A DNA stretch of 64,000 bases. It comes from Nitrospira sp. Lineage in GTDB: Bacteria > Nitrospirota > Nitrospiria > Nitrospirales > Nitrospiraceae. The notes under the pieces were generated by a model. That model did no database searches, was not told the DNA's origin, and worked only from the letters and a program-made list of their open reading frames with translations. The stretch spans positions 3,873,237 through 3,937,236 of the forward strand of contig CP126123.1 in the NCBI GenBank assembly GCA_030123605.1, in the 5' to 3' direction. Shown here in pieces: positions 3,560-37,556 of this stretch. The translations under genes and the position numbers were made by a program. Within the stretch, counting starts at the first letter, position 1. Each line of letters starts with the position of its first letter.

Positions 3560-3585
3560 TGTAAGACCTGACCGGCTGATTCGAC
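3560..3585 (+). promoter_or_regulatory. ECF-type promoter motif, copy 1 (TGTAAG-N16-CGAC)
   Basis: TGTAAG at 3560-3565 and CGAC at 3582-3585 are separated by exactly 16 bases, ending 24 bases before the ATG of the SMP-30 gene. The same pair with the same spacing occurs seven more times in the window, each time on the plus strand. The form (-35 of GTAA type, -10 of CGA type, 16-nt spacer) is typical of ECF sigma promoters. Confidence 0.8.
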
Positions 3586-7141: not shown

Positions 7142-7245
7142 TCGAAAGGGGCCGTCTTCAATCCTTGCTCCTCCGCTCCACTCGCCCGTAATCTTAGGCA
7201 GAGGGTCGAAGGGGAGGGCCTTATCCTGTTGAAGCGAGGACGACG

Positions 7246-7869
7246 ATGAACTCACCCGTCAGCGACATTGCGTTTACCGCGTCTGTGAAGGACGTTCAAC
7301 GACACATGGGGTCACGCAAACAGTATGAACGGATGGAGAAGAGTGGTGGCTGGGAGAATACGATCACCAGGGATCTATCCGACTTCATCGGCGAGCGCGA
7401 TTCGTTGTATTTGGCAACCGCCAGCGCGACAGGTCGGCCTTATATCCAGCACCGTGGGGGGCCAAAAGGGTTTCTCAAGGTGCTGGATGATCGCACTTTG
7501 GCCTTTGCCGATTTCGCGGGGAACCGTCAGTATATCTCAGTCGGGAACCTGGCCGAAAACAATCAAGCCTGTTTGTTTCTCATGGACTACGCCAGTCAAA
7601 CACGGATCAAAATCTGGGGAACGGCTGAGGCTGTCGATAATGATCCGCGCCTCATGAAGCACCTCACGGATCCGGGCTACAAGGGAAAACCGGAACGGGC
7701 CATTCGTTTTCATGTTGAAGCCTGGGACGGCAATTGCAGACAGCACATTCGACCGAGGTTTACGAAAGAGGAAGCCGATGCGCTTGTGCAGCCGCTACGT
7801 GATCGCCTCGCCGAATTGGAAGCCGAGAACAACGCGTTGAAGCGTCAAGCCGCAGCGCGTGCCAGGTAG
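7246..7869 (+). CDS. Pyridoxamine 5'-phosphate oxidase-like FMN-binding protein
   Basis: 207 residues with the split-barrel flavin-binding fold of the PPOX family: SLYLATASATGRPYIQHRGG, then LAFADFAGNRQYISVGNLAENN and ACLFLMDY. These are typical of the pyridoxamine phosphate oxidase-like subgroup annotated as general flavin reductases/oxidases rather than true PdxH. The last ~35 residues form a coiled coil (LRDRLAELEAENNALKRQ). GAGG precedes the ATG. Monocistronic. The role is probably reduction of a small molecule with FMN; substrate unknown. Confidence 0.85.
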   Translation: MNSPVSDIAFTASVKDVQRHMGSRKQYERMEKSGGWENTITRDLSDFIGERDSLYLATASATGRPYIQHRGGPKGFLKVLDDRTLAFADFAGNRQYISVGNLAENNQACLFLMDYASQTRIKIWGTAEAVDNDPRLMKHLTDPGYKGKPERAIRFHVEAWDGNCRQHIRPRFTKEEADALVQPLRDRLAELEAENNALKRQAAARAR

Positions 7870-24156: not shown

Positions 24157-24426
24157 ATGTTGAAAATCACGACGGCAGAACGGAACGGGCAGACGGTCGT
24201 GCTCAAGCTCGAAGGCAAGATCATCGACCAGTGGGCCGCGCTCCTCGATCGCGAGTGCAGGGCGGCGCTACTGCACCATGGTCGGGTCGAGTTGGATTGT
24301 GCCGCGGTGGATTTTTTGGATCAGCGGGGGATCGAGGTGATGAAACGCCTGCCTCGCAAACAGGTCACACTTATCGGCGCTCCTGGATTCGTGATGGAGC
24401 TGCTGCAGACAGGAGGTCGGTCATGA
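24157..24426 (+). CDS. STAS-domain protein
   Basis: 89 residues: NGQTVVLKLEGKIIDQWAAL, then RVELDCAAVDFLDQRGIEVM. The fold matches STAS domains (anti-anti-sigma-like), with D-F-L-D in place of the usual D-S-S loop, so the classic phosphorylatable Ser is absent. The ATG at 24157 follows AAGGGA; upstream in-frame starts lie before the sigma-54 promoter. Its stop overlaps the sigma gene start (ATGA). A regulatory partner of the sigma factor or a membrane protein is possible; inferred from position. Confidence 0.75.
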   Translation: MLKITTAERNGQTVVLKLEGKIIDQWAALLDRECRAALLHHGRVELDCAAVDFLDQRGIEVMKRLPRKQVTLIGAPGFVMELLQTGGRS

Positions 24427-25127
24427 ACGCCATTGCCATCACCCAGGAACATTCGTCGGTACAGGCTCAGTCACGAATATTGAATGGAGCGCGAGTGCCG
24501 GAGTCCGGTCCGATCGGCGGCGAGCGGCAATTGCTCGCCCGGCTTCGACAGCGTGATGCGGCGGCCTTCGACGAGTTGGTCGTCAAACATCATGGTGCCC
24601 TGATCCGCATGGCGATGGGCCATGTGGCAGACCGTGAAACGGCGGAGGAAGTGGTCCAGGACACCTGGATGGCGGTCATCGAAAGCCTGGATCGATTCGA
24701 GGGCCGATCGTCGCTGCGGACCTGGATCTTCGGGATTCTGATTCACAAGGCGAAGGATCGCGGCGTGCGCGAGAAGCGTCACACGACGTTCTCGGCCTTC
24801 GAATCCTACGATGACGAACAGGAAGAAGCGGTGGATCCCTCACGGTTTCATCTGCTGGGAGAGTGGGCCGGGCGGTGGGCCCTGCCGCCGCAACCCTGGG
24901 ATGACCGGACGCCGGAAGCCCTCCTGGCCAACCAACAGGTCGTGGCGGCGATGCAACAGGCTCCGGCGACATTGAAGGAGGTCCTTGTGCTTCGTGATGT
25001 CGAGGGGCTGGAATCGAAAGAGATCTGCGAGTTGTTGAAGATCACGGAGACGAATCTCTATGTGCGGTTGCATCGCGCGCGCGAGCGGGTGCGGCAAGCG
25101 ATCGAAGCCTACGTCGGGGAACGGTGA
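24423..25127 (+). CDS. ECF-type RNA polymerase sigma factor
   Basis: 234 residues. Region 2: DAAAFDELVVKHHGALIRMA, then AEEVVQDTWMAVIESLDRFE and SSLRTWIFGILIHKAKDR. Region 4: QAPATLKEVLVLRDVEGLES, then LKITETNLYVRLHRARERVR. No region 3, so an RpoE-like ECF sigma. A 45-residue linker with acidic and Trp-rich stretches separates the regions. It is translationally coupled to the STAS gene, and the zinc-finger anti-sigma gene follows after 90 bp. It is the best candidate for recognising the TGTAAG-N16-CGAC motifs. Confidence 0.92.
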   Translation: MNAIAITQEHSSVQAQSRILNGARVPESGPIGGERQLLARLRQRDAAAFDELVVKHHGALIRMAMGHVADRETAEEVVQDTWMAVIESLDRFEGRSSLRTWIFGILIHKAKDRGVREKRHTTFSAFESYDDEQEEAVDPSRFHLLGEWAGRWALPPQPWDDRTPEALLANQQVVAAMQQAPATLKEVLVLRDVEGLESKEICELLKITETNLYVRLHRARERVRQAIEAYVGER

Positions 25128-25158: not shown

Positions 25159-25184
25159 TGTAAGGAATGTCCGGGAGAGGAGAC
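25159..25184 (+). promoter_or_regulatory. ECF-type promoter motif, copy 4 (variant -10 AGAC), before the anti-sigma gene
   Basis: TGTAAG at 25159-25164, 16 bases, AGAC at 25181-25184. It lies between the ECF sigma and anti-sigma genes, so the sigma factor could drive its own inhibitor separately. Confidence 0.65.
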
Positions 25185-25217
25185 TCAAGGGTAGATCACG
25201 TTACCGGAGGCCCCGCT

Positions 25218-25475
25218 ATGAACCACCATCCGTCTCATGAGGGCACAGCGGCACTGACCTGTCGCGAGGCCGCCGCATGGACATCGGTCTATCTCGATGC
25301 GTGTCTCCACGACTCCGGCCAGGCCCGCATGACAGTCCATGTGGCGGCCTGTGCCGCTTGTCGCGCCTATGTCGAACAGATCAGGCTCGTGCGTGAGGCG
25401 CTGAAAGGCCTTCCTTATACGATGCCTTCGTCCGAGTTGCGTCTTTTTGTGCAGCAACGGTTCGCCGAGCGGTGA
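25218..25475 (+). CDS. Zinc-finger (ZAS-type) anti-sigma factor
   Basis: 85 residues. LTCREAAAWTSVYLDACLHD, then MTVHVAACAACRAYVEQIRL contains the H-x3-C-x2-C zinc site of anti-sigma factors, with the preceding Cys as a further ligand. No TM helix, so it acts in the cytoplasm, where such proteins often sense redox state by zinc release. The ATG at 25218 has GGAGG 7 bases upstream. Next gene is cydA, 84 bp away. Confidence 0.85.
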   Translation: MNHHPSHEGTAALTCREAAAWTSVYLDACLHDSGQARMTVHVAACAACRAYVEQIRLVREALKGLPYTMPSSELRLFVQQRFAER

Positions 25476-25559: not shown

Positions 25560-26900
25560 ATGGAGACCGCATTGCTGTACGACCGTCTGCAATTCGCAGT
25601 CACGGTGACTTTCCATTATCTGTTTCCACAATTGACGATGGGCGTGGCCCTGTTGCTCGTCTATTTCAGAACCAGGGCACTCACAAGCGGCGAGGAACAT
25701 TATCATCGCGTCGCCCTGTTCTGGACGAAAATTTTTGCCTTGAGCTTCGCCTTCGGCGTGGTCACCGGTATTCCGCTGGAATTTCAGTTCGGCACCAACT
25801 GGGCGAAATTTTCCAACTTCGCCGGCGGCGTCATCGGCCAGATGTTGGCGATGGAGGGGATGTTCGCGTTCTTTCTGGAATCGTCATTCATCGGCATCCT
25901 GCTCTACGGCGACAAGCGGTTCAGTCTGCGTGTGCAATGGTTCGCCGCCCTGATGCTGTTTCTCGGCTCGTGGCTCTCGGGCTATTTCATCCTCGCGACG
26001 AACGCCTGGATGCAACATCCTGTTGCCTATACGGTCGCGCCGGACGGACGGCTGTTCGTCGACAGTCTCTCCGGCCTGCTCACGAATCCCTGGCTATTCT
26101 GGCAATATACGCACAACATGACCGCCGCAGTGGTGACCGGGTCGTTCGTCATGGCGGCGGTCGGGTCGTTCTATCTCTTGTCCGCTCGACACGTGGCCTA
26201 CGCGAAGACGTTCCTTCGCACCGGCGTCGTTTCCGGCGCGATCAGCATCACGTTGATGGTTTTCCCCACCGGCGATGGCAACGCCAAACAGGTGTTCGAA
26301 CATCAGCCGGTGAAGGGCGCGGCTTTCGAAGGGCTGTTTAAGTCTGAGCGAGGCGCGGGACTCCTGCTGATCGGCCAACCGAACATGGAAACCATGACGA
26401 TCGACAATCCGTTGGAAGTGCCGGCAGCGCTCAGTTTCTTGGTGTACGACGAACTTTATGCCGAGGTGAAAGGGCTTGATGCGTTTCCGCGCGAAGACTG
26501 GCCTGACAACTTGCCGCTGCTCTACTATTCGTATCATGTGATGGTCGGCCTCGGGACCATCCTCATGGGCGTGATGGGCCTCGCGATGCTCTGGCTCTGG
26601 CGCGGCCGGCTGTTCGAAGCGAAATGGCTGCTCTGGCTCGTGATGCTGAGTGCGCCGTTCCCCTACATCGCGACGACGGCCGGATGGATGACGGCGGAAC
26701 TCGGCCGCCAACCTTGGCTGGTCTATGGGGTGCTGCGCACCGCCGAAGGCGCGTCGCCGTTGGTGCATTCCGGGAACGCGCTGTTCACGTTGCTCGGCTT
26801 CCTTGGTATCTACCTCATGCTGGGGCTGCTCTTCCTGTTTCTGATCGTCGAGACGATCCACCAGGGCCCGGCCGACCATCCAACGGCAGGGCACGCGTGA
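25560..26900 (+). CDS. cydA: Cytochrome bd quinol oxidase subunit I
   Basis: 446 residues with about nine TM helices. His19 (VTFHYLFPQL) matches the haem b595 ligand; the N-terminal region LQFAVTVTFHYLFPQLTMG, GMFAFFLESSF and the GRQPWLVYG motif identify CydA. The quinol-binding Q-loop is short, as in the CioA (cyanide-insensitive) branch. The enzyme reduces O2 to water with quinol in the membrane and often protects against oxidative or nitrosative stress. Overlaps cydB by 1 base (TGATG). Confidence 0.95.
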   Translation: METALLYDRLQFAVTVTFHYLFPQLTMGVALLLVYFRTRALTSGEEHYHRVALFWTKIFALSFAFGVVTGIPLEFQFGTNWAKFSNFAGGVIGQMLAMEGMFAFFLESSFIGILLYGDKRFSLRVQWFAALMLFLGSWLSGYFILATNAWMQHPVAYTVAPDGRLFVDSLSGLLTNPWLFWQYTHNMTAAVVTGSFVMAAVGSFYLLSARHVAYAKTFLRTGVVSGAISITLMVFPTGDGNAKQVFEHQPVKGAAFEGLFKSERGAGLLLIGQPNMETMTIDNPLEVPAALSFLVYDELYAEVKGLDAFPREDWPDNLPLLYYSYHVMVGLGTILMGVMGLAMLWLWRGRLFEAKWLLWLVMLSAPFPYIATTAGWMTAELGRQPWLVYGVLRTAEGASPLVHSGNALFTLLGFLGIYLMLGLLFLFLIVETIHQGPADHPTAGHA

Positions 26901-27934
26901 TGGAAACGTTCTGGTATGCCGCTGTGACGTTGATGCTGACCGTCTATGTCGTCCTCGATGGCTTCGACTTCGGCGTCGGCATCGTCTATCCCTTCGCGGC
27001 GAAAACGGAAATGGATCGGCGTACGGCGCTCGGCGCCATCGGGCCGGTCTGGAATGGAAACGAAGTTTGGTTGATCGCAGCCGGCGGCTTGCTCTTCTTC
27101 GCCTTTCCCAAGGCCTATGCAGCGGGATTCAGCGGGTTTTATCTCGCGCTCATCATCGTGCTGTGGCTGTTGATCGGGCGCGGGCTGGCGCTCGAACTGC
27201 GGTCGCATATCGACCATGACCTGTGGCGGCAATGGTGGGATTTCGTGTTTGCGATTTCCAGCACGTTGCTGGCCGTCGTCTTCGGCGCGGCGTTGGGTAA
27301 TCTGATCCGCGGCGTGCCGTTGAATCAAGACGGCTATTTCTTTGTCCCGCTCTGGACGAATTTTATGACAGGGCCGCAGCCGGGTATTCTGGATTGGTTC
27401 ACGGTCTTGATTGGCCTCACCAGTGCAACTCTTTTGGCATTGCACGGCGCGAATTATCTGGCGATGAAGACTGAGCGCGAGTTGCAGGCCCAGGCCAGGA
27501 CTATCGCCAGATTGGCTGGGTTTGCCACGGCCGGCTTCGTGGTGCTCGTGCTGACCGTTGCCCCCTTCGTTCAGCCATCGTTTGGTCTCAACTATGGAGC
27601 CCATCCGATCGGTGCCGTTTTTCCGGTCATCGGTATGGGCGCGTTGGTTGCGACGATTGCCCTGCGAAGACGAGACCAGGATGCCTCTGCGTTCTATGCC
27701 TCCTGCCTTATGATCCTCGCGCTTCTCGCCAGCACGGCTTGGGGGTCGTATCCCAACATCCTGATCGCCACGGCGGATCCGTCCCGTAGCCTGACGGTCT
27801 TCAATGCGACCGCCGGAGTCTACGGCATGCACATCGGCCTCTGGTGGTTTTTGATCGGCTTCGGCCTGGTCATCGCCTATCAGGTCTATGCGCACCGTGT
27901 CTTTTGGGGAAAAGTCACGGTGGACAGGCACTGA
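26900..27934 (+). CDS. cydB: Cytochrome bd quinol oxidase subunit II
   Basis: 344 residues, about eight to nine TM helices: YVVLDGFDFGVGIVYPFAAK, then GPVWNGNEVWLIAAGGLLFF are strongly conserved in CydB. Overlapping start with cydA ensures equal expression. No CydX-type small subunit is obvious between cydB and the next gene. Confidence 0.95.
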   Translation: METFWYAAVTLMLTVYVVLDGFDFGVGIVYPFAAKTEMDRRTALGAIGPVWNGNEVWLIAAGGLLFFAFPKAYAAGFSGFYLALIIVLWLLIGRGLALELRSHIDHDLWRQWWDFVFAISSTLLAVVFGAALGNLIRGVPLNQDGYFFVPLWTNFMTGPQPGILDWFTVLIGLTSATLLALHGANYLAMKTERELQAQARTIARLAGFATAGFVVLVLTVAPFVQPSFGLNYGAHPIGAVFPVIGMGALVATIALRRRDQDASAFYASCLMILALLASTAWGSYPNILIATADPSRSLTVFNATAGVYGMHIGLWWFLIGFGLVIAYQVYAHRVFWGKVTVDRH

Positions 27935-27978: not shown

Positions 27979-28038
27979 TCATGAACAGATGGCTCCGGCA
28001 AGACATCCCGGAGTCGGCGCATGAGAAGGAGATCAACG

Positions 28039-31307: not shown

Positions 31308-31333
31308 TGTAAGAATCCTGTCTCTCGTCCGAC
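31308..31333 (+). promoter_or_regulatory. ECF-type promoter motif, copy 6 (orphan, left of the IS3 element)
   Basis: TGTAAG at 31308-31313, 16 bases, CGAC at 31330-31333. No intact gene follows before the IS element at 31487; the Met-rich peptide gene truncated on the far side of the IS is the likely former target. Confidence 0.65.
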
Positions 31334-31560
31334 TCTTGTTTGTACACCCTCCATGGGGTTCAATGGCTCCTGGATATTCTCGGCAATGTTGCGAAGGCCG
31401 ATGAGCACCGGTCGGATGTGAGGAAGCGAACGACCGTACGCGAGTGACGCTGATGACTTGGCGTATCAAAGGGGGAAGGATATCACTGACCTTCCCCCCG
31501 AAAACTAGACCATTGGCATGGAAGTTTACCTGTGCTGAGATAGGCCCCACAGGAGGGGCC

Positions 31561-31827
31561 ATGACGCGAAAACGCCACACGGAGGAACAGATCATTGCGG
31601 TGCTCAAGGATGCCCAGGCGGGCATTGGGGTCCCAGAGCTCTGCCGCAAACACGGGATCTCGGATGCCACCTTTTATAAGTGGCGGGCGAAATATGCCGG
31701 GCTCGAAGTGAGTGATGTGAAGAAGCTCCGCCAACTGGAGGACGAAAACCGGCGGCTCAAACAGATGGTGGCAGACCAAGCGCTGGACATCCAAGCGTTG
31801 AAAGCGATCAACGCAAAAAACTGGTAG
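31561..31827 (+). CDS. IS3-family transposase OrfA
   Basis: 88 residues: [20 protein letters not shown], then [20 protein letters not shown] is the helix-turn-helix of IS3/IS911 OrfA, followed by a leucine-zipper-like [20 protein letters not shown]. The run A-AAA-AAC at 31815-31821, six bases before its stop codon, is a classic -1 slippery site. Confidence 0.92.
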
Positions 31828-32690
31828 GGCCCAAGGCGAAGCGAGCGGCAGCTCAGTGGAGCACCGAGCGCTTTGGGCTCAGTCAGCGACGGGTATGCCG
31901 TCTCCTGGACCTCGATCGCCAGACGCTCCGGTATCGCCGTCGCCGCCAGGAGGATGAGCCGCTACGGACGCGGATTCGGGAGATTGCCGAGAGCAAGCGG
32001 CGGTACGGTTGTCCCCGGATCTATGTGCGCTTACGGCGTGAGGGCTGGCGCGTGAATCATAAGAAGGTGGAACGGATCTATTATCGCGACGAGGGGCTGT
32101 CGTTACGGCGACGGCGGCGGAAGAAGCTGGCCGCGGTGCCGCGGGTCGCGCTCCCACGGCCGACGCAGCCGGGGCGCTGTTATGCGCTGGATTTCGTGCA
32201 TGATCGGCTAGTCACGGGACGACGGTACAAATGTTTGACGATGACCGATCTGTGTTCCAAGGAAGTCCCGGTGATTGAGGTGGATGTGTCGATCGGCGGG
32301 GCACGGGTATGCCGGATTCTTGACCGGCTGTTTCATACACGGCCGTTCCCGGAGACGTTGATCCTGGACAACGGCCCAGAATTCGCCGGGACCGCCTTGG
32401 ATGCCTGGGCCGTCCAGCACGGCGTGCACCTGCACTTCATTCAGCCGGGGAAGCCAGTGCAGAATGCGTTTATCGAGAGCTTCAACGGCAAGTTTCGCGA
32501 TGAATGTCTCAACGAGCATTGGTTTCTGACCTTGCAGGAAGCGCAGCTGGTCATCGAATCATGGCGGCGGGAATATAACGAGGAGCGGACGCACAGTGGA
32601 ATTGGGGATCTGACACCCCAGGAGTTCATTCGTAACCATCAAGCCGGGGCTTATCGGGCACAGGACTCAACTACCTTGGCTGTGGTGTAA
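31818..32690 (+). CDS. IS3-family transposase OrfB (DDE integrase domain, made by -1 frameshift)
   Basis: Open from the slippery site: [20 protein letters not shown], then [20 protein letters not shown] and the rve core. Catalytic residues: D in [12 protein letters not shown] in [12 protein letters not shown] in [17 protein letters not shown]. OrfB has no good start of its own near the junction, so an OrfAB fusion is expected to be the active transposase. Confidence 0.9.
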
Positions 32691-32707
32691 TTAACGGGGG
32701 AAGGTCA

Positions 32708-32951
32708 GGCAGGATTCGGTTCTCTGTCATTTGCCGATGAGATGGGCAAGATGAAGGATGAGATGAAGGGTGACGCGATGGGGCACAAGGATGCGATGAA
32801 AGGGGAGATGAAGGGGAAGTCAAACGACATGAAGGGGCAGAAGGACGCAATGAAAGGGGAGATGAAAGAGAAGCGCGATGATATGAAGGGCGAGATGAAA
32901 AGCACACACAATGACATGAAAGGCGAGATGAAAGGAGCCATGGGTAAGTAA
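32708..32951 (+). pseudogene. Met/Lys-rich repeat peptide (MXKDX/MrpX-like), 5' end lost to the IS3 element
   Basis: Directly after the IS end the frame reads AGFGSLSFADEMGKMKDEMK, i.e. the end of a signal peptide (SLSFA) followed by a low-complexity mature part of MKGEMK, MKGQKD and KSNDMKG units. About 14 of 69 residues are Met and many are Lys, Asp or Glu. This resembles the pentapeptide MXKDX proteins and the Met-rich MrpX of Azospira, which scavenges hypochlorite in the periplasm. The start codon and most of the signal peptide are missing, so export is lost. An internal ATG at 32742 would give a cytoplasmic product. Followed by a good terminator. Confidence 0.75.
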
Positions 32952-32975
32952 ACGCTTCCATCGCGTTCCGAAGTT

Positions 32976-33014
32976 ATGGCCTGCGGTCTCACTCGACTGC
33001 AGGCCATCTTTTTT
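32976..33014 (+). terminator. Rho-independent terminator after the Met-rich gene
   Basis: ATGGCCTGC (32976-32984) pairs with GCAGGCCAT (32999-33007), followed by CTTTTTT. It isolates the Met-rich gene from the cytochrome operon. Confidence 0.8.
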
Positions 33015-33029
33015 GCGCACACCATGGTC

Positions 33030-33055
33030 TGTAAGAAATGTCTCTGCACGGCGAC
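33030..33055 (+). promoter_or_regulatory. ECF-type promoter motif, copy 7
   Basis: TGTAAG at 33030-33035, 16 bases, CGAC at 33052-33055, 37 bases before the ATG of the cytochrome b561-like gene. Confidence 0.8.
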
Positions 33056-33092
33056 AATCTCGGTAGAGAGTGCGTAGCGAGAGGAGAGAATC

Positions 33093-34004
33093 ATGCCATC
33101 ACTGATTGAGAACAGCGCAGACACGCAGATTCCGGCTCTTGATGCAGTGGTATCCGCTGAGCACGCAACCGTTCCGGCGCCTCCCATCATCCCCGTAGCC
33201 GTCAAGGAACGGGTCTATCGGCACAAGCTTCCCGTTCGCCTGGGCCATTGGCTCAACGTGGTCTGTCTGTTCATCTTGATCAGCAGCGGTCTCCAGATTT
33301 TCAACGCACATCCTGCGCTCTACTGGGGCGATCGATCCGATCGAGACAAGTCCCTGCTCTCGATCCGTCCGATGAGGACCGACAGCGGCGAGATGAAAGG
33401 CGTGACGACGATCTTGGGGCATCAATTCGATACGACCGGGGTCCTCGGCTATTCGAACGGCTCAGGCCGCGCCTTCCCCGCTTGGGCGACGGTCCCCAGC
33501 GCCAAATGGCTCGCGATGGGACGGCAGTGGCATCTCTTCTTCGCGTGGTTGTTCGTCATCAACGGAGTGATCTTTGCGACCTACGCCTTCGTGAGCCGCC
33601 ACTTCAAAAAAGATCTCTTGCCGACCGGCCAGGATTTGAAGCAGATCCCGCAAGCGGTGAAGGACCATCTTGTGCTGCGCCACCCGACGGGTGATGAAGC
33701 CAAGCGCTACAACGTCCTGCAGAAGCTGGCCTATGTCGGCGTGATCTGCGGGCTTGCGCCGCTGATCGTCTTGACCGGCCTCACGATGTCGCCGACGATC
33801 GATACGGCCTTCCCGTGGCTGTTGACGATCTTTGGCGGCAGGCAATCCGCGCGGACGATCCACTTTATCGCCTGTTTCTCGTTTGTCGGGTTTATCGTGA
33901 TCCACGTGTCACAAGTCATTCTGACAGGGTTCTTCAACAACATCCGCTCGATGATCACGGGATACTTTGTGATCAAACATGAAGGAGCCAGCCATGGAGT
34001 CTAA
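33093..34004 (+). CDS. Cytochrome b561 / thiosulfate-reductase-type b-haem membrane subunit
   Basis: 303 residues. After a soluble N-terminus, VYRHKLPVRLGHWLNVVCLF begins a four-helix di-haem bundle, with His ligands in RLGHWLN, GRQWHLFFAWL, and FIVIHVSQVI and TIHFIACFSF near the end. It should pass electrons between quinol and a periplasmic partner. It overlaps the molybdoenzyme gene by 11 bp, so they form a membrane anchor-catalytic pair like YedZ-YedY or PhsC-type systems. SD is AGGAGAG. Driven by ECF motif copy 7. Confidence 0.88.
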   Translation: MPSLIENSADTQIPALDAVVSAEHATVPAPPIIPVAVKERVYRHKLPVRLGHWLNVVCLFILISSGLQIFNAHPALYWGDRSDRDKSLLSIRPMRTDSGEMKGVTTILGHQFDTTGVLGYSNGSGRAFPAWATVPSAKWLAMGRQWHLFFAWLFVINGVIFATYAFVSRHFKKDLLPTGQDLKQIPQAVKDHLVLRHPTGDEAKRYNVLQKLAYVGVICGLAPLIVLTGLTMSPTIDTAFPWLLTIFGGRQSARTIHFIACFSFVGFIVIHVSQVILTGFFNNIRSMITGYFVIKHEGASHGV

Positions 34005-34764
34005 ACGTGCAATGGAACGACGAGCCTTCTTGAAGGGTACGGCTGGAGCAGCAAGCCTCCTTGCCCTCGCCGGCTGCGACAACCTGACACAGAGCGGGTG
34101 GTTTCCCAACATCCTCCATCAGGCGGAGAAGCTGACCGATGCCGTTCAACGCGCAATCACGCCTGTCAATGCCCTGGCAAAAGAATATAGCGAGGCAGAG
34201 ATCTCGACAGTCTTTCCGGCGAACGGCAATACCGATCCCGGCACGCAAGACTACGCTGAAATGGCTCAAGACACTTTCATCGACTGGAAAGTCACGGTTG
34301 CTGGACTGGTGTCCGCACCGACCGCCTTTTCACTGGCCGCGATCAAGGCTATGCCTGTCAGGACGCAGATCACCAGACATGATTGCGTCGAGGGATGGAG
34401 CGCCATCGGCCAATGGACCGGGGTGCCGCTGGGCGATCTGCTGCGCCCGGTCCAGCCCTTGCCGAGGGCGAAGTATGCCGTCTTCCATTGCGCCGATGTA
34501 GACGACGAAGGTATTTCCTACTATGAGAGCATGGCGCTGGCCGATTGCTACCATCCGCAGACGATCTTAGCCTATGAATTGAACGGCAAGCCACTCGACA
34601 TTCCCCACGGCGCGCCGCTACGTCTCCGCTTTGAACGCCAACTCGGGTACAAGCAGGCGAAGTATGTGATGCGCATCGAGCTGGTGGAATCGCTGGAGGG
34701 AATCGGCGGGGGCAAGGGGGGATACTGGGAAGATCAGGGGTATGAGTGGTACGCCGGGATATAG
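33994..34764 (+). CDS. SUOX-fold molybdopterin enzyme, MsrP(YedY)-like, Tat-exported
   Basis: 256 residues. RRAFLKGTAGAASLLALAGC is a Tat signal that ends in a lipobox-like Cys. The catalytic part contains RHDCVEGWSAIGQWTGVPLG, close to the C-V-E-x-W motif of MsrP, with Cys as the Mo ligand. There is no C-terminal dimerisation domain, as in MsrP. MsrP reduces methionine sulfoxide in periplasmic proteins using electrons from a haem partner; here the cytochrome b561 gene upstream would serve. The ATG at 33994 has AAGGAG upstream. A role as sulfite or other S-oxide enzyme remains possible. Confidence 0.82.
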   Translation: MESKRAMERRAFLKGTAGAASLLALAGCDNLTQSGWFPNILHQAEKLTDAVQRAITPVNALAKEYSEAEISTVFPANGNTDPGTQDYAEMAQDTFIDWKVTVAGLVSAPTAFSLAAIKAMPVRTQITRHDCVEGWSAIGQWTGVPLGDLLRPVQPLPRAKYAVFHCADVDDEGISYYESMALADCYHPQTILAYELNGKPLDIPHGAPLRLRFERQLGYKQAKYVMRIELVESLEGIGGGKGGYWEDQGYEWYAGI

Positions 34765-34889
34765 GCAGGATGATGAAACAAGCCGCCAGCGTCGTTCTCG
34801 CATCGTTCAGACCCTCGACGTACCAGAAATGTACGCCTTGGCCCTTCGCTCGCTGCGGCCTCGCTAGACGACTTGTTTGATCATCCTGC
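34765..34889. repeat. Long palindromic intergenic repeat (REP-like)
   Basis: GCAGGATGAT-GAAACAAG at the left pairs with CTTGTTTGATCATCCTGC at the right (ends at 34889), with complex GC-rich sequence between. It begins right at the stop of the molybdoenzyme gene. The arrangement is that of a transcribed structured repeat; it may act as terminator or mRNA 3' stabiliser. Confidence 0.6.
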
Positions 34890-34918
34890 AAGCCAATTTC
34901 TGAGAGAATGAGTGAATC

Positions 34919-36133
34919 GTGAAACTTGCCTGGTCCCTGATCATTCCCCTCTGCGCATATCTTCTGACCGGCTGCCTCTCGCCGATTGCCATGCATCGTG
35001 CGGTGATTGAATATGACCGCACGGTCAGTTACGTCGAGGCGGACTTATTACTTTTGAACATCGCGCGGGCCCGCCACCATCGGCCGGTGCATTTTACGGC
35101 GGTGTCGAGTGTGGCGGCCACGTTCGACTTTCGAACCAGTGCGGGTATCTCCGGTGGGTTGGGGCGTGCCGCGGATCCTGATCAACGGCCAATCAATCTG
35201 GAGTATTCCGCCAGCGTCGCAGAAAATCCCACGATCACGATCGTTCCGATTGCCGGGGAGGAGTTTACAAAACGAATCCTCCGGCCTCTCGATGAGTCGC
35301 ACCTCGATTTCTTAGTCCGTCAGGGATTCGATCTCGGCATGGTGCTTCGGCTGTTAGCACGCGGGATCGCGATCGATGAGAAGGGAACCCTCACCATTCT
35401 GTTCAACAGCCCGCAACGGAGGGAGGAGTACAGGGAATTTCGGCGCCGTCTCCTGCACCTGGCTTCGCTGGATTTTCAGAAACAGCTTCGGATCGGGCCC
35501 ATCATGTATGAGGAAGCCTTCCCGGTGGCGCTGGATCGCGCCCTCACTCCGGCAGAGGTTGTTGCAGCGCTCCAGACGGGGTATCGTTGGACGACGACGA
35601 GCAAGGAACAACCGGCTGTGTTAAGCCGAAAAGTAACCGGTCGGATCACCATGACCAACTACGATGTGCAGGGGTTGACCAATGAAGAACGACGCCGCTT
35701 GAACGAGGAGATTGAACGGTTTTCTCCGGACCATGTCTTCGTGGACATTCGTCCCGGATTTGCGGGCGGCGACTATCCTCTGCGCGGGTTTATGTTGCTG
35801 CGCAGCTTCAACTCCATCATTTCCTTCGTTGCCCGCGGAATAGCGGAAGAACAGGGGTACCACGTGGACAAGGATGCGCGAACCGGTCCTGTTCCGAGAA
35901 ACCCGGCTCATGTGCTGGAGATCGAAGAGTCGTCGACCCGTCTGACGGATGCGGAATTCTCGGTCGAATTCGAGGGGAAACATTATGCGATCAGAAAATT
36001 TCCGATCACCGAAGGGATGGAGCCGAGTTGGAACCAAGAGGCGTTTGCCGTGCTGTCGGACCTCTTTCAGATGACGGTGACGGACATCTCCAATGTGAAA
36101 ACGCCGATCATTTCCATTCCAAAAGGAGGATGA
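34919..36133 (+). CDS. Conserved lipoprotein of unknown function
   Basis: 404 residues, GTG start. MKLAWSLIIPLCAYLLTGCL carries a lipobox (LTGC), so it is probably anchored to the outer membrane. The rest is soluble: VEADLLLLNIARARHHRPVH near the N-terminus, FVDIRPGFAGGDYPLRGFML further on. I do not recognise a domain. It is followed 2 bp later by another lipoprotein gene, so they are co-expressed. Confidence 0.7.
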   Translation: MKLAWSLIIPLCAYLLTGCLSPIAMHRAVIEYDRTVSYVEADLLLLNIARARHHRPVHFTAVSSVAATFDFRTSAGISGGLGRAADPDQRPINLEYSASVAENPTITIVPIAGEEFTKRILRPLDESHLDFLVRQGFDLGMVLRLLARGIAIDEKGTLTILFNSPQRREEYREFRRRLLHLASLDFQKQLRIGPIMYEEAFPVALDRALTPAEVVAALQTGYRWTTTSKEQPAVLSRKVTGRITMTNYDVQGLTNEERRRLNEEIERFSPDHVFVDIRPGFAGGDYPLRGFMLLRSFNSIISFVARGIAEEQGYHVDKDARTGPVPRNPAHVLEIEESSTRLTDAEFSVEFEGKHYAIRKFPITEGMEPSWNQEAFAVLSDLFQMTVTDISNVKTPIISIPKGG

Positions 36134-36135
36134 TC

Positions 36136-36456
36136 ATGATGAACCTACGCGGTCTTATCGGGACGGTCCTGACCGCCATGTTGTTCCTCAACGGATGTTA
36201 CATGACGAAGGAACAGCGTTGGGAGGCGTTTGACACCGAACGGCGACAGGAGGTTGGTGTGAAGACCACGGACTATTATCTCACTGAGTGGGGAAAACCC
36301 AAAAAACGTATGAGATCCCAAGATGGAGGGGAAATATTGACGTGGGAGTTTTCCGGCTATGGCGGCGCCGAGGGTTGGCGGAAGACCCTGATCTTCACGC
36401 CTGATGGGATCCTGAAAGAGTTTCGGCGGGAATATTGGCCCAAAGAAGCCTGGTGA
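36136..36456 (+). CDS. Small lipoprotein
   Basis: 106 residues. Signal peptide with lipobox LNGC, then YMTKEQRWEAFDTERRQEVG and a C-terminal KTLIFTPDGILKEFRREYWP, resembling small SmpA/OmlA-like lipoproteins in its Y-x-x-EWGKP...F-x-x-x-G pattern. The ATG at 36136 is preceded by AGGAGG that overlaps the previous stop. Function unknown. Confidence 0.7.
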   Translation: MMNLRGLIGTVLTAMLFLNGCYMTKEQRWEAFDTERRQEVGVKTTDYYLTEWGKPKKRMRSQDGGEILTWEFSGYGGAEGWRKTLIFTPDGILKEFRREYWPKEAW

Positions 36457-36504
36457 GGCGCAGCGTTCGTTTCCCCGGAGGTCCGATGCTTCGCGGTCCT
36501 ACCC

Positions 36505-36530
36505 TGTAAGGACCAGTCCGTGACGGCGAC
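36505..36530 (+). promoter_or_regulatory. ECF-type promoter motif, copy 8
   Basis: TGTAAG at 36505-36510, 16 bases, CGAC at 36527-36530, 21 bases before the sulfite-oxidase-like ATG. Confidence 0.8.
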
Positions 36531-36551
36531 CAAAAAACAGGGACTCAACCC

Positions 36552-37556
36552 ATGACCACGACGCTCTCCCGTCGCCGCCTGCTCTTCGCTGCCGGCGTGA
36601 CCGCCTTCGCGTCAATTTTACGCCCGCTCTCAGCATCGGCCGGCCTGCTCGACTCTCTGTTCGGGCGCGTCGAAGCCAAGGCGACCAAGCCGATTACCCT
36701 CAACGAGGAGTTTTACCTGACTTCCTATCGGAGTCCATCGACGATCCGAGTGCATGACTGGTTGCTTTCGGTCAAGGGACTGGTCGAACGGCCGAGCCGC
36801 TTCACCTACGAGGAACTCCTCGCGAAACCCACCGTCTCACAGATTGTCACGCTCGAATGCGTCGGCAACACGGTGGCCGGAGAGTTCATCGGTACGGCGG
36901 AGTGGACGGGCATTTCTTTGCGCGGTTTGTTGGAAGATGCCGGTATCCATGCCAGTGGGCACGATGTCGTATTCCGGGCGGCGGACGGTTTCTCTGACAG
37001 TATCCGCCTGGATCGGGCGATGGCCGACGATGTGTTGATGGCTCACGGGATGAACGGTGTGCCCCTGCCGCAAGGTCACGGTTTTCCCGTTCGAATCATC
37101 GTGCCGGGCTGTTATGGCATGAAAAGTGTGCAATGGCTGACCGAGATCGAAGTCGTGGACCACGATTACAAGGGCTACTATCAGCAGAAGGGTTGGTCGG
37201 ACGAGGCGATCGTCAAGACCACCTCGCGTATCGATCTGCCAGGCCACGGGACGACGTTGCGAGGCCTGCGTCACAGAATCGAAGGCCTGGCTTTTGCGGG
37301 AACGCGGGGGATCAGTCTAGTCGAGATCAGCCTGGATGGTGGTGAGGTCTGGATCCCTGCGACCCTCGATCCTCCCCTCTCTCCTGCCGCGTGGAGCTTC
37401 TGGAGCTATGATTGGACGGTACAGGCAGCCGGCCGGTATCACCTGGCTGTTCGCGCAACGGATGGAACAGGGTGGCGTCAATCCTCGATCGAACAAGACC
37501 CGGCTCCGGACGGCGCCACGGGGCTTCATGAGGTTATGGTCACCGTGGAGGGGTGA
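36552..37556 (+). CDS. Sulfite oxidase-like molybdopterin enzyme, Tat-exported
   Basis: 334 residues. Tat signal SRRRLLFAAGVTAFASIL. The Moco domain has IVTLECVGNTVAGEFIGTAE (Cys ligand, C-x-GN as in sulfite oxidases) and GHGFPVRIIVPGCYGMKSVQ. The C-terminal ~90 residues (GISLVEISLDGGEVWIPATL, then YDWTVQAAGRYHLAVRATDG) are the immunoglobulin-like dimerisation domain, so this is a SorA/SUOX type rather than MsrP. Likely oxidises sulfite or a similar S compound in the periplasm and passes electrons to a cytochrome; a small cytochrome c is encoded at 39516. Confidence 0.88.
   Translation: MTTTLSRRRLLFAAGVTAFASILRPLSASAGLLDSLFGRVEAKATKPITLNEEFYLTSYRSPSTIRVHDWLLSVKGLVERPSRFTYEELLAKPTVSQIVTLECVGNTVAGEFIGTAEWTGISLRGLLEDAGIHASGHDVVFRAADGFSDSIRLDRAMADDVLMAHGMNGVPLPQGHGFPVRIIVPGCYGMKSVQWLTEIEVVDHDYKGYYQQKGWSDEAIVKTTSRIDLPGHGTTLRGLRHRIEGLAFAGTRGISLVEISLDGGEVWIPATLDPPLSPAAWSFWSYDWTVQAAGRYHLAVRATDGTGWRQSSIEQDPAPDGATGLHEVMVTVEG

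Follow-up and report, generated by a model that had tools for sequence, protein, structure and literature searches.

A b561-type cytochrome and an MsrP-related molybdoenzyme in Nitrospira: a possible variant of periplasmic methionine-oxidation defence

Organization of the locus

The DNA analysed here (the window) is a stretch of 64,000 nucleotides, positions 3,873,237-3,937,236 of a complete 4.32 Mb Nitrospira genome, and it contains adjacent genes for a membrane cytochrome and a molybdopterin enzyme of the sulfite oxidase (SUOX) fold. The enzyme has a C-V-E-x-W centre and lies at 33979/33994-34764; the name MsrPL is used here for it and for its clade. The best reading of the sequences is that the pair and its surroundings constitute a widespread variant of the periplasmic systems for scavenging and repair of methionine oxidation. 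Coordinates are window positions unless a locus is given, and L and G numbers are labels of homologous loci and of genomes, respectively. The central features, which include motifs of the type recognised by extracytoplasmic function (ECF) sigma factors, are as follows.

24231..25127, + strand: ECF sigma factor (PF04542 and PF08281), which presumably reads the motif; the actual start is probably internal, at about 24420
25167..25475, + strand: small probable anti-sigma factor with a conserved H-x3-C-x2-C; other Nitrospira loci have, beside their ECF gene, homologues with the same Cys/His pattern
31308..31333, + strand: ECF-type motif of a decayed unit of YHS-domain and methionine (Met)-rich peptide genes; an equivalent motif precedes the (anti-sigma-)YHS-Met-rich genes in L097 and L131
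about 31364-31450, + strand: remnant, 3' end of a YHS-domain gene, aligning with the YHS gene ends of L097, L131 and L098
31487-32707, + strand: IS3-family insertion sequence (IS) element (NF033516, 167 bits; orfA at about 31562-31827, orfB at 32025-32690)
32708..32951, + strand: 5'-truncated gene of a Met/Lys-rich peptide that has lost its signal peptide; Met makes up 20% of the mature part
33030..33055, + strand: ECF-type motif belonging to the unit of cytochrome and MsrPL, with counterparts at this position in L051, L053, L057, L096, L097, L125 and L131
33093..34004, + strand: di-haem b561-type (FdnI/PhsC/hydrogenase b) membrane cytochrome (PF01292, 81.8 bits)
33979..34764, + strand: MsrPL, SUOX-fold molybdopterin enzyme and lipoprotein with a signal of the twin-arginine translocation (Tat) type (RRxFL...LAGC followed by D) and the centre DCVEGWS (PF00174, 109 bits); an ATG at 33994 is also possible

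A preliminary description of this DNA had listed a haem membrane protein (33093), a C-V-E-x-W enzyme (33994) and a second SUOX-fold enzyme (36552), and Pfam confirmed all three at these places. It had also taken the membrane partner to be of the b561/PhsC type and not MsrQ. This view is borne out by the match to PF01292 and by models of hydrogenase b, PhsC and FdnI-type subunits, which match the cytochrome, and no MsrQ model matched it in the profile search.

The cytochrome and its constant partner

Four histidines of the cytochrome (His52, His147, His257 and His271) show no variation across 81 sequences, and the last two are 14 residues apart, a spacing that we take to be that of FdnI. The four residues together with this FdnI-like spacing suggest two haems and a quinone site.

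A scan for relatives, with one genome per species, found at least 586 encoded ones. The nearest ones beyond Nitrospirota, among the matches listed, belong to Rhizobiales, Burkholderiales and Gammaproteobacteria and are 51-60% identical. Gene neighbourhoods were compared in the 80 loci of the closest relatives, from Nitrospirota and Proteobacteria, a set that is partly redundant and gives counts uncorrected for shared ancestry. The cytochrome gene is directly 5' of the MsrPL gene in 80/80. Hundreds of genomes carry the cytochrome-molybdoenzyme pair; in the literature searched no function was found for it, nor any publication that brings together a SUOX enzyme, a b561 cytochrome and a Met-rich peptide of the MXKDX or another type, and the MsrPL-cytochrome variant is apparently undescribed so far.

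MsrPL is related to MsrP and lies outside its clade

The preliminary description had called the enzyme MsrP-like, and the relationship holds, although membership of MsrP does not. MsrPL reaches 96.5 bits with the MsrP model NF003767, whose cut-off is 207; all MsrPL score 92-110 bits and the true MsrP of the same genomes 402-503 bits, leaving a clean gap. In a tree of 59 sequences (bootstrap not fully settled; a quicker tree agrees) MsrP forms one clade (100/100), and a second one (98/92) unites MsrPL with fused cytochrome-enzyme proteins, so that the phylogeny proposed for the 33994 protein places it outside MsrP. Assignment to MsrP was therefore rejected on tree position and on a score below half of the cut-off. 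Profile comparison nevertheless puts MsrPL nearer to MsrP (E 1e-31) than to the family of the second enzyme (E 4e-24), and MsrPL and MsrP have in common C146/E148/W150 and about 30 near-invariant positions. The residues C136, E138, W140 and S141 (C-V-E-x-W-S) are present in every non-fused MsrPL aligned, the fused forms having Q for E.

Compared with E. coli MsrPQ (YedYZ), MsrPL shares the SUOX fold without a dimerisation domain (the PF03404 domain of sulfite oxidases was not found in it by Pfam), the Tat-type signal, the C-V-E-x-W-S centre and a quinone-linked membrane haem partner. It differs from E. coli MsrP, to which it is 26% identical, in its score below the model cut-off, in the non-MsrQ cytochrome, in a lipobox with Asp at +2 and in having FxxNG for the YNNFYEF motif; there are 20 near-fixed differences between MsrPL and MsrP. 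The invariant Asn82 of FxxNG falls one column from MsrP Asn45 (mature E. coli numbering), a placement from sequence alignment alone. The sulfite dehydrogenases SorA, SorT and SoxC are of the same superfamily and fold; MsrPL lacks both their PF03404 domain and their conserved active-site Arg, with a Ser five residues after the Mo-binding Cys, in the position of SorA Arg109.

Tat signals and lipoboxes are recognisable in sequence, and by the +2 rule an Asp after the lipobox Cys means retention in the inner membrane; MsrP is a soluble periplasmic protein. Gly-Cys occupies the lipobox site in 61/61 MsrPL sequences covering it, Asp follows in 56, and a twin arginine lies upstream. MsrPL is therefore predicted to be a Tat-exported lipoprotein held in the inner membrane beside its cytochrome.

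The predicted structure of MsrPL has the SUOX fold, with a mean predicted local distance difference test score (pLDDT) of 79. The best Foldseek matches of the model are 1xdy/1xdq (YedY; E 8e-14), and VIA-align gives Z 19.7 for SorA and 16.9 for YedY; as a model, it gives no choice between MsrP and sulfite oxidase. The ranking of SorA with or above YedY would be compatible with a different role, in which the MsrPL-cytochrome pair is a quinone-reducing dehydrogenase of sulfite or another small sulfur or nitrogen compound, merely co-regulated with a Met-rich peptide and, for example, supplying reducing power in stress. The SUOX-fold enzymes do include sulfite dehydrogenases, the cytochrome family includes enzyme-to-quinone partners such as FdnI and the hydrogenase b subunits, and S. 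meliloti RpoE4 controls a sulfite oxidase. We consider such a dehydrogenase unlikely, as MsrPL has neither the dimerisation domain nor an Arg where SorA has Arg109 and sequence profiles place it nearer MsrP; the repeated pairing with sacrificial Met-rich peptides described below would also be left unexplained.

The fused proteins of the MsrPL clade are about 500 residues long and join a b561-type cytochrome to an MsrPL-like domain with C-I-Q-G-W for C-V-E-G-W (L061:6945-8510, L062:7559-9037, L063:8123-9601). Genome G021 has two fused copies with equal match scores.

That these fused forms sit in other gene settings, and that the clade is clearly apart from MsrP with its 20 near-fixed differences, would also fit an enzyme pair that reduces some other small periplasmic molecule (an S-oxide, an N-oxide, chlorate or chlorite, or a nitrogen oxide) in a general envelope-redox response. 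Chlorite and oxyanions of its kind are relevant to Nitrospira, the phylum being among the likeliest carriers of chlorite dismutase (PMC9751292). A small-molecule substrate nevertheless appears distinctly unlikely to us, since the C-V-E-x-W-S centre has been kept wherever the enzyme is not fused and the Met-rich peptides would not be explained.

True MsrP was found in none of the 29 Nitrospira genomes searched. A Nitrospirota metagenome bin from groundwater has a member of the true MsrP clade (L100:8818-9558) encoded directly behind MsrPL, so both enzyme types can share a cluster.

A truncated Met-rich gene with intact homologues in relatives

The Met/Lys peptide gene that had been noted at 32708-32951 is in that place and is Met-rich, but it is a remnant truncated by the IS3 element and not an intact gene. 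Its open reading frame (ORF) at 32742-32951 has 12 Met in the richest 60 residues, the highest value among all ORFs of the window. The frame extends 5' of the first ATG as ...GFGSLSFAD followed by EMGK, the last part of a signal peptide, before meeting the end of the IS3 element, which is bounded by 12-base inverted repeats (TGACCTTCCCCC) and has no target duplication. The signal peptide was lost because the element removed it, and the scavenger half of the system is consequently probably dead in this genome.

On the other side of the element, the left flank has no full match in the 28 other Nitrospira, and its identity as the tail of a YHS gene was recognised solely by comparison with L097, L131 and L098 (blastn 74% over 53 bases, E 0.006). 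This tail and the IS element intervene between the 31308 motif and the Met-rich ORF, so that the motif is not directly 5' of it.

The search for intact Met-rich homologues beside the same operon was successful: they lie directly 5' of the same cytochrome gene in seven Nitrospira-type loci (L053, L096, L097, L098, L099, L125 and L131), that of L053 starting MKQIMLSLIAIMCLVGFTSLSFADEMGK. Of the two observations that were together to refute the preliminary idea, an enzyme placed outside MsrP and a lack of conserved Met-rich neighbours in relatives, the first was made and the second was not. A YHS-domain gene precedes the Met-rich gene in L097, L098 and L131, and YHS is recognised by Pfam in L099. 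The gene order in these relatives, taken with the alignment of the YHS tail, indicates an ancestral order of motif, (anti-sigma), YHS, Met-rich peptide, second motif, cytochrome and enzyme. The window retains both motifs and the cytochrome-enzyme unit, and most of the YHS/Met-rich unit has been lost.

The Nitrospira Met-rich peptides do not match TIGR02953, the model of MXKDX repeat proteins (cut-off 41 bits), and were accordingly rejected as members of that family. Exported Lys/Glu-rich small proteins resembling late embryogenesis abundant (LEA) proteins, and distantly resembling the Met-rich peptide, occur in every Nitrospira genome searched (L010, L011, L066-L093). The one LEA-like protein measured has 8.8% Met, compared with 18-25% in the Met-rich peptides.

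Conserved neighbourhood in Nitrospirota and Proteobacteria

Met-rich ORFs (at least 6 Met in 40 residues, same strand, at most 2.2 kb upstream or 0.6 kb downstream of the module) were found beside the module in 27/80 loci, and a crude prediction gives 26 of these a signal peptide. Elsewhere in those loci, over 912 kb, there are five Met-rich ORFs, none with a signal peptide. The peptides are of at least three types: the MKGEMK type of Nitrospira, the MXKDX/TIGR02953 type and a Rhizobium type downstream of MsrPL. MXKDX proteins are small exported Met/Lys/Asp repeat proteins, found beside MsrPL in Rhizobiales, where the two neighbours tested score 54.9 and 75.4 bits with TIGR02953, in contrast to the unmatched Nitrospira peptides. 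This diversity indicates that the pairing with Met-rich peptides arose, or was kept, more than once. Peptides of the Rhizobium type are exported, about 90 residues long with 11-12 Met in 40, and are encoded directly behind MsrPL (L111:8811-9071, L130:8850-9116, L135:8814-9086, L138:8822-9091, L155:8903-9175).

An ECF16-like sigma factor and its partner NrsF (PF06532, 188 bits in the one tested) are encoded beside the module in 15/80 loci, which are proteobacterial and include those of Rhizobiales. A peptide is present in 13/15 loci with NrsF and in 15/65 without it (Fisher p 8e-6). Of 12 NrsF loci checked, 11 have in the gap between sigma factor and module the sequence GTAAC-N16/17-CGAA, which is the ECF16 promoter consensus (PMC3420878); it stands upstream of the sigma gene, of the peptide gene or of both. 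Brucella has an ECF16 sigma factor, paired with a DUF1109 anti-sigma, that controls the genes of an MXKDX peptide, MsrQ and MsrP; the system is induced by hypochlorous acid (HOCl) and contributes to HOCl resistance (PMC8315932). Together with the Rhizobiales loci this indicates that one class of regulator and one peptide family occur in combination with MsrPQ in some bacteria and with cytochrome-MsrPL in others.

The whole arrangement could in principle be a chance neighbourhood, if the Met-rich ORF encoded a hydrophilic stress protein without any relation to the pair and the motif were a general stress promoter, and all Nitrospira do have similar exported Lys-rich small proteins with less Met. 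The seven intact homologues in the same position in Nitrospira-type loci, the other Met-rich peptides placed likewise in Proteobacteria and the co-occurrence of ECF factor and MsrPL across genomes (see below) already contradict this explanation, which we regard as very improbable.

The ECF-type motif and its presumed reader

As had been noted beforehand, one ECF-type motif recurs at 31308, 33030 and 36505. These sites are part of a set of six TGTAAG-N16-CGAC sites in the window (also 3560, 6757 and 17494), all on the + strand and with identical spacing; dinucleotide shuffles of the window contain a mean of 0.10 sites, at most 1 and never 6. Over the whole genome, a tighter form of the motif (R at position 7, M at 8) has nine sites, seven of them within 40 kb (3.870-3.910 Mb), and the control pattern, read backwards, has five, which indicates that single sites outside the cluster are near background. 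A wider form (R only, at position 7) is at background level in most Nitrospira genomes, and single sites of it outside the cluster are thus no evidence.

A close homologue of the ECF factor at 24231 is present in 8/29 Nitrospira genomes, and MsrPL is found in 8/8 of these as against 2/21 of the others (Fisher p 1e-5). The mean number of motif sites per genome is 7.4 in the eight ECF-bearing genomes and 2.0 in the others, with 7.1 for the backwards control in both. Sigma factor, motif and MsrPL therefore travel together, and TGTAAG-N16-CGAC may well be the promoter read by the ECF factor. It matches the ECF16 core in spacing and differs by one base in each box (GTAAG/CGAC versus GTAAC/CGAA).

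Judged by its anti-sigma, the regulator pair in Nitrospira is not of the SigF/NrsF type, the candidate anti-sigma being a small HxxxCxxC protein and not NrsF. The protein at 25167..25475 has no Pfam match and no match to NrsF, and its sequence has the look of a zinc anti-sigma factor.

Directly behind the sigma/anti-sigma pair lie CydA/CydB-like oxidase genes (25560-27934), which have the same place in other Nitrospira loci. The sites at 3560, 6757 and 17494 precede genes for, respectively, an SMP-30/lactonase-like protein, a PPOX-like flavin protein and a GMC-type oxidoreductase (named by eye). With a glucose-dehydrogenase-like gene at 28021, these hint at sugar oxidation in the same regulon.

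A putative quinol-linked reductase in an oxidant response

The known systems closest to the MsrPL module are SigF/NrsF-MrpX-YedYZ of Azospira suillum and BcrS/AbcS-BcrXQP of Brucella melitensis (PMC8315932). Like the module, they have an ECF sigma factor with a promoter of the same architecture and, in one cluster, genes for an exported Met-rich peptide, a SUOX-fold periplasmic enzyme and a haem membrane protein. In Rhizobiales the resemblance extends to the ECF16/NrsF neighbours and the MXKDX peptide family. The module differs from both systems in an enzyme that lies outside the MsrP clade and is predicted to be lipid-anchored, and in having a b561/FdnI-type di-haem cytochrome as its partner where they have MsrQ. 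The Nitrospira version differs further in its small HxxxCxxC anti-sigma, in GTAAG/CGAC for GTAAC/CGAA and in a peptide unrecognised by TIGR02953. The preliminary idea of an oxidant-scavenging system in a distinct version is thus strongly supported by the constant cytochrome (80/80), the peptides (27/80) and the ECF16/NrsF context in Rhizobiales, with the peptide broken in this genome.

We estimate a probability of roughly 60% that the 33093 cytochrome and MsrPL form a quinol-linked periplasmic reductase in an ECF-sigma oxidant response, similar to MsrPQ in action and built from other parts. An envelope oxidant (HOCl or another oxidant of methionine) would inactivate the small anti-sigma, upon which the ECF sigma factor (24231) would read TGTAAG-N16-CGAC and turn on the units that carry this motif. 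The relatives would then export the Met/Lys peptide, encoded in a constant position and presumably unstructured, which by analogy with MrpX may absorb the oxidant as methionine sulfoxide. The di-haem cytochrome would pass electrons from quinol to MsrPL, anchored through its lipid (Asp +2) at the outer face of the inner membrane, and MsrPL would reduce the methionine sulfoxide of the peptide and of other envelope proteins. Methionine sulfoxide as substrate and HOCl, or a like oxidant, as trigger are what we infer. In the genome studied here, with the peptide gene cut by the IS element, plausibly only the repair half is left.

Several observations weigh against this interpretation. A branch of 3.5 changes per site separates MsrPL from MsrP, enough for another substrate, and for no MsrPL did we find a known activity, induction or mutant. 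True MsrP is also present in 17/26 proteobacterial genomes with MsrPL, indicating that in Proteobacteria MsrPL is not simply a stand-in for MsrP and that the two may divide the work. Of the 80 loci, 53 have no Met-rich neighbour, and many are tied to other genes (a 211-residue exported protein, TetR). The other motif-bearing genes (SMP-30 lactonase, GMC oxidoreductase, glucosidase and PPOX-like, by eye) give no pointer to chlorine. In Caulobacter, chromate and cadmium elicit the ECF16 response (PMC3511200), so that the inducer in Nitrospira could differ.

More tentatively, and at slightly under even odds, MsrPL and the b561-type cytochrome may constitute a second, separately assembled and membrane-tethered methionine sulfoxide reductase system across Nitrospirota and Proteobacteria, repeatedly teamed with sacrificial Met-rich peptides and serving as a bleach or chloramine defence for nitrifiers that lack MsrPQ. 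The neighbourhoods would assign the pair a testable job, the repair of oxidised methionine beside a sacrificial peptide, under the sigma class of the Azospira and Brucella hypochlorite defence. If this is true, the MsrPQ/MrpX idea would be a general design with exchangeable parts (ECF sigma, Met-rich sink and quinol-linked SUOX-fold reductase), and it would bear on the survival of chlorine and chloramine by Nitrospira, nitrifiers of water and sewage treatment.

Other genes of the cluster

Downstream of MsrPL lie the following features.

34919..36133, + strand: lipoprotein, behind MsrPL also in six other Nitrospira (L052-L056 and L058; 64-95% identity)
36136..36456, + strand: small lipoprotein, with an 82% identical gene in L058
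36505..36530, + strand: ECF-type motif before the second SUOX-fold gene, kept in L058
36552..37556, + strand: second SUOX-fold enzyme (PF00174, 160 bits, and a weak PF03404 dimerisation domain)

The two lipoprotein genes, neither of whose products has a Pfam match, separate the two SUOX-fold genes. The larger lipoprotein is 95% identical in L058, where the neighbouring MsrPL has only 74% identity, a difference suggestive of recombination between lineages. The second SUOX-fold enzyme is found near the cluster in five other Nitrospira as well (L052, L054, L055, L057 and L058). Its scores with the SorA, SorT and SoxC models are 142, 88 and 140 bits, all below the respective cut-offs of 600, 570 and 420. 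The sequence leans to the SorA/SoxC side of the superfamily, although even the best score is 142 of 600 bits and Val stands in the position of SorA Arg109, the active-site Arg after the Cys being absent.

A DUF417 gene lies behind an ECF motif inside the cluster in L053 (about 7155-7667, - strand) and L056 (3487-3999). DUF417 was not found in the genome of the window and occurs in only 2/29 Nitrospira genomes (G015 and G017), both times in this cluster. We take DUF417 to be the family of RclC, a protein of the reactive-chlorine operon.

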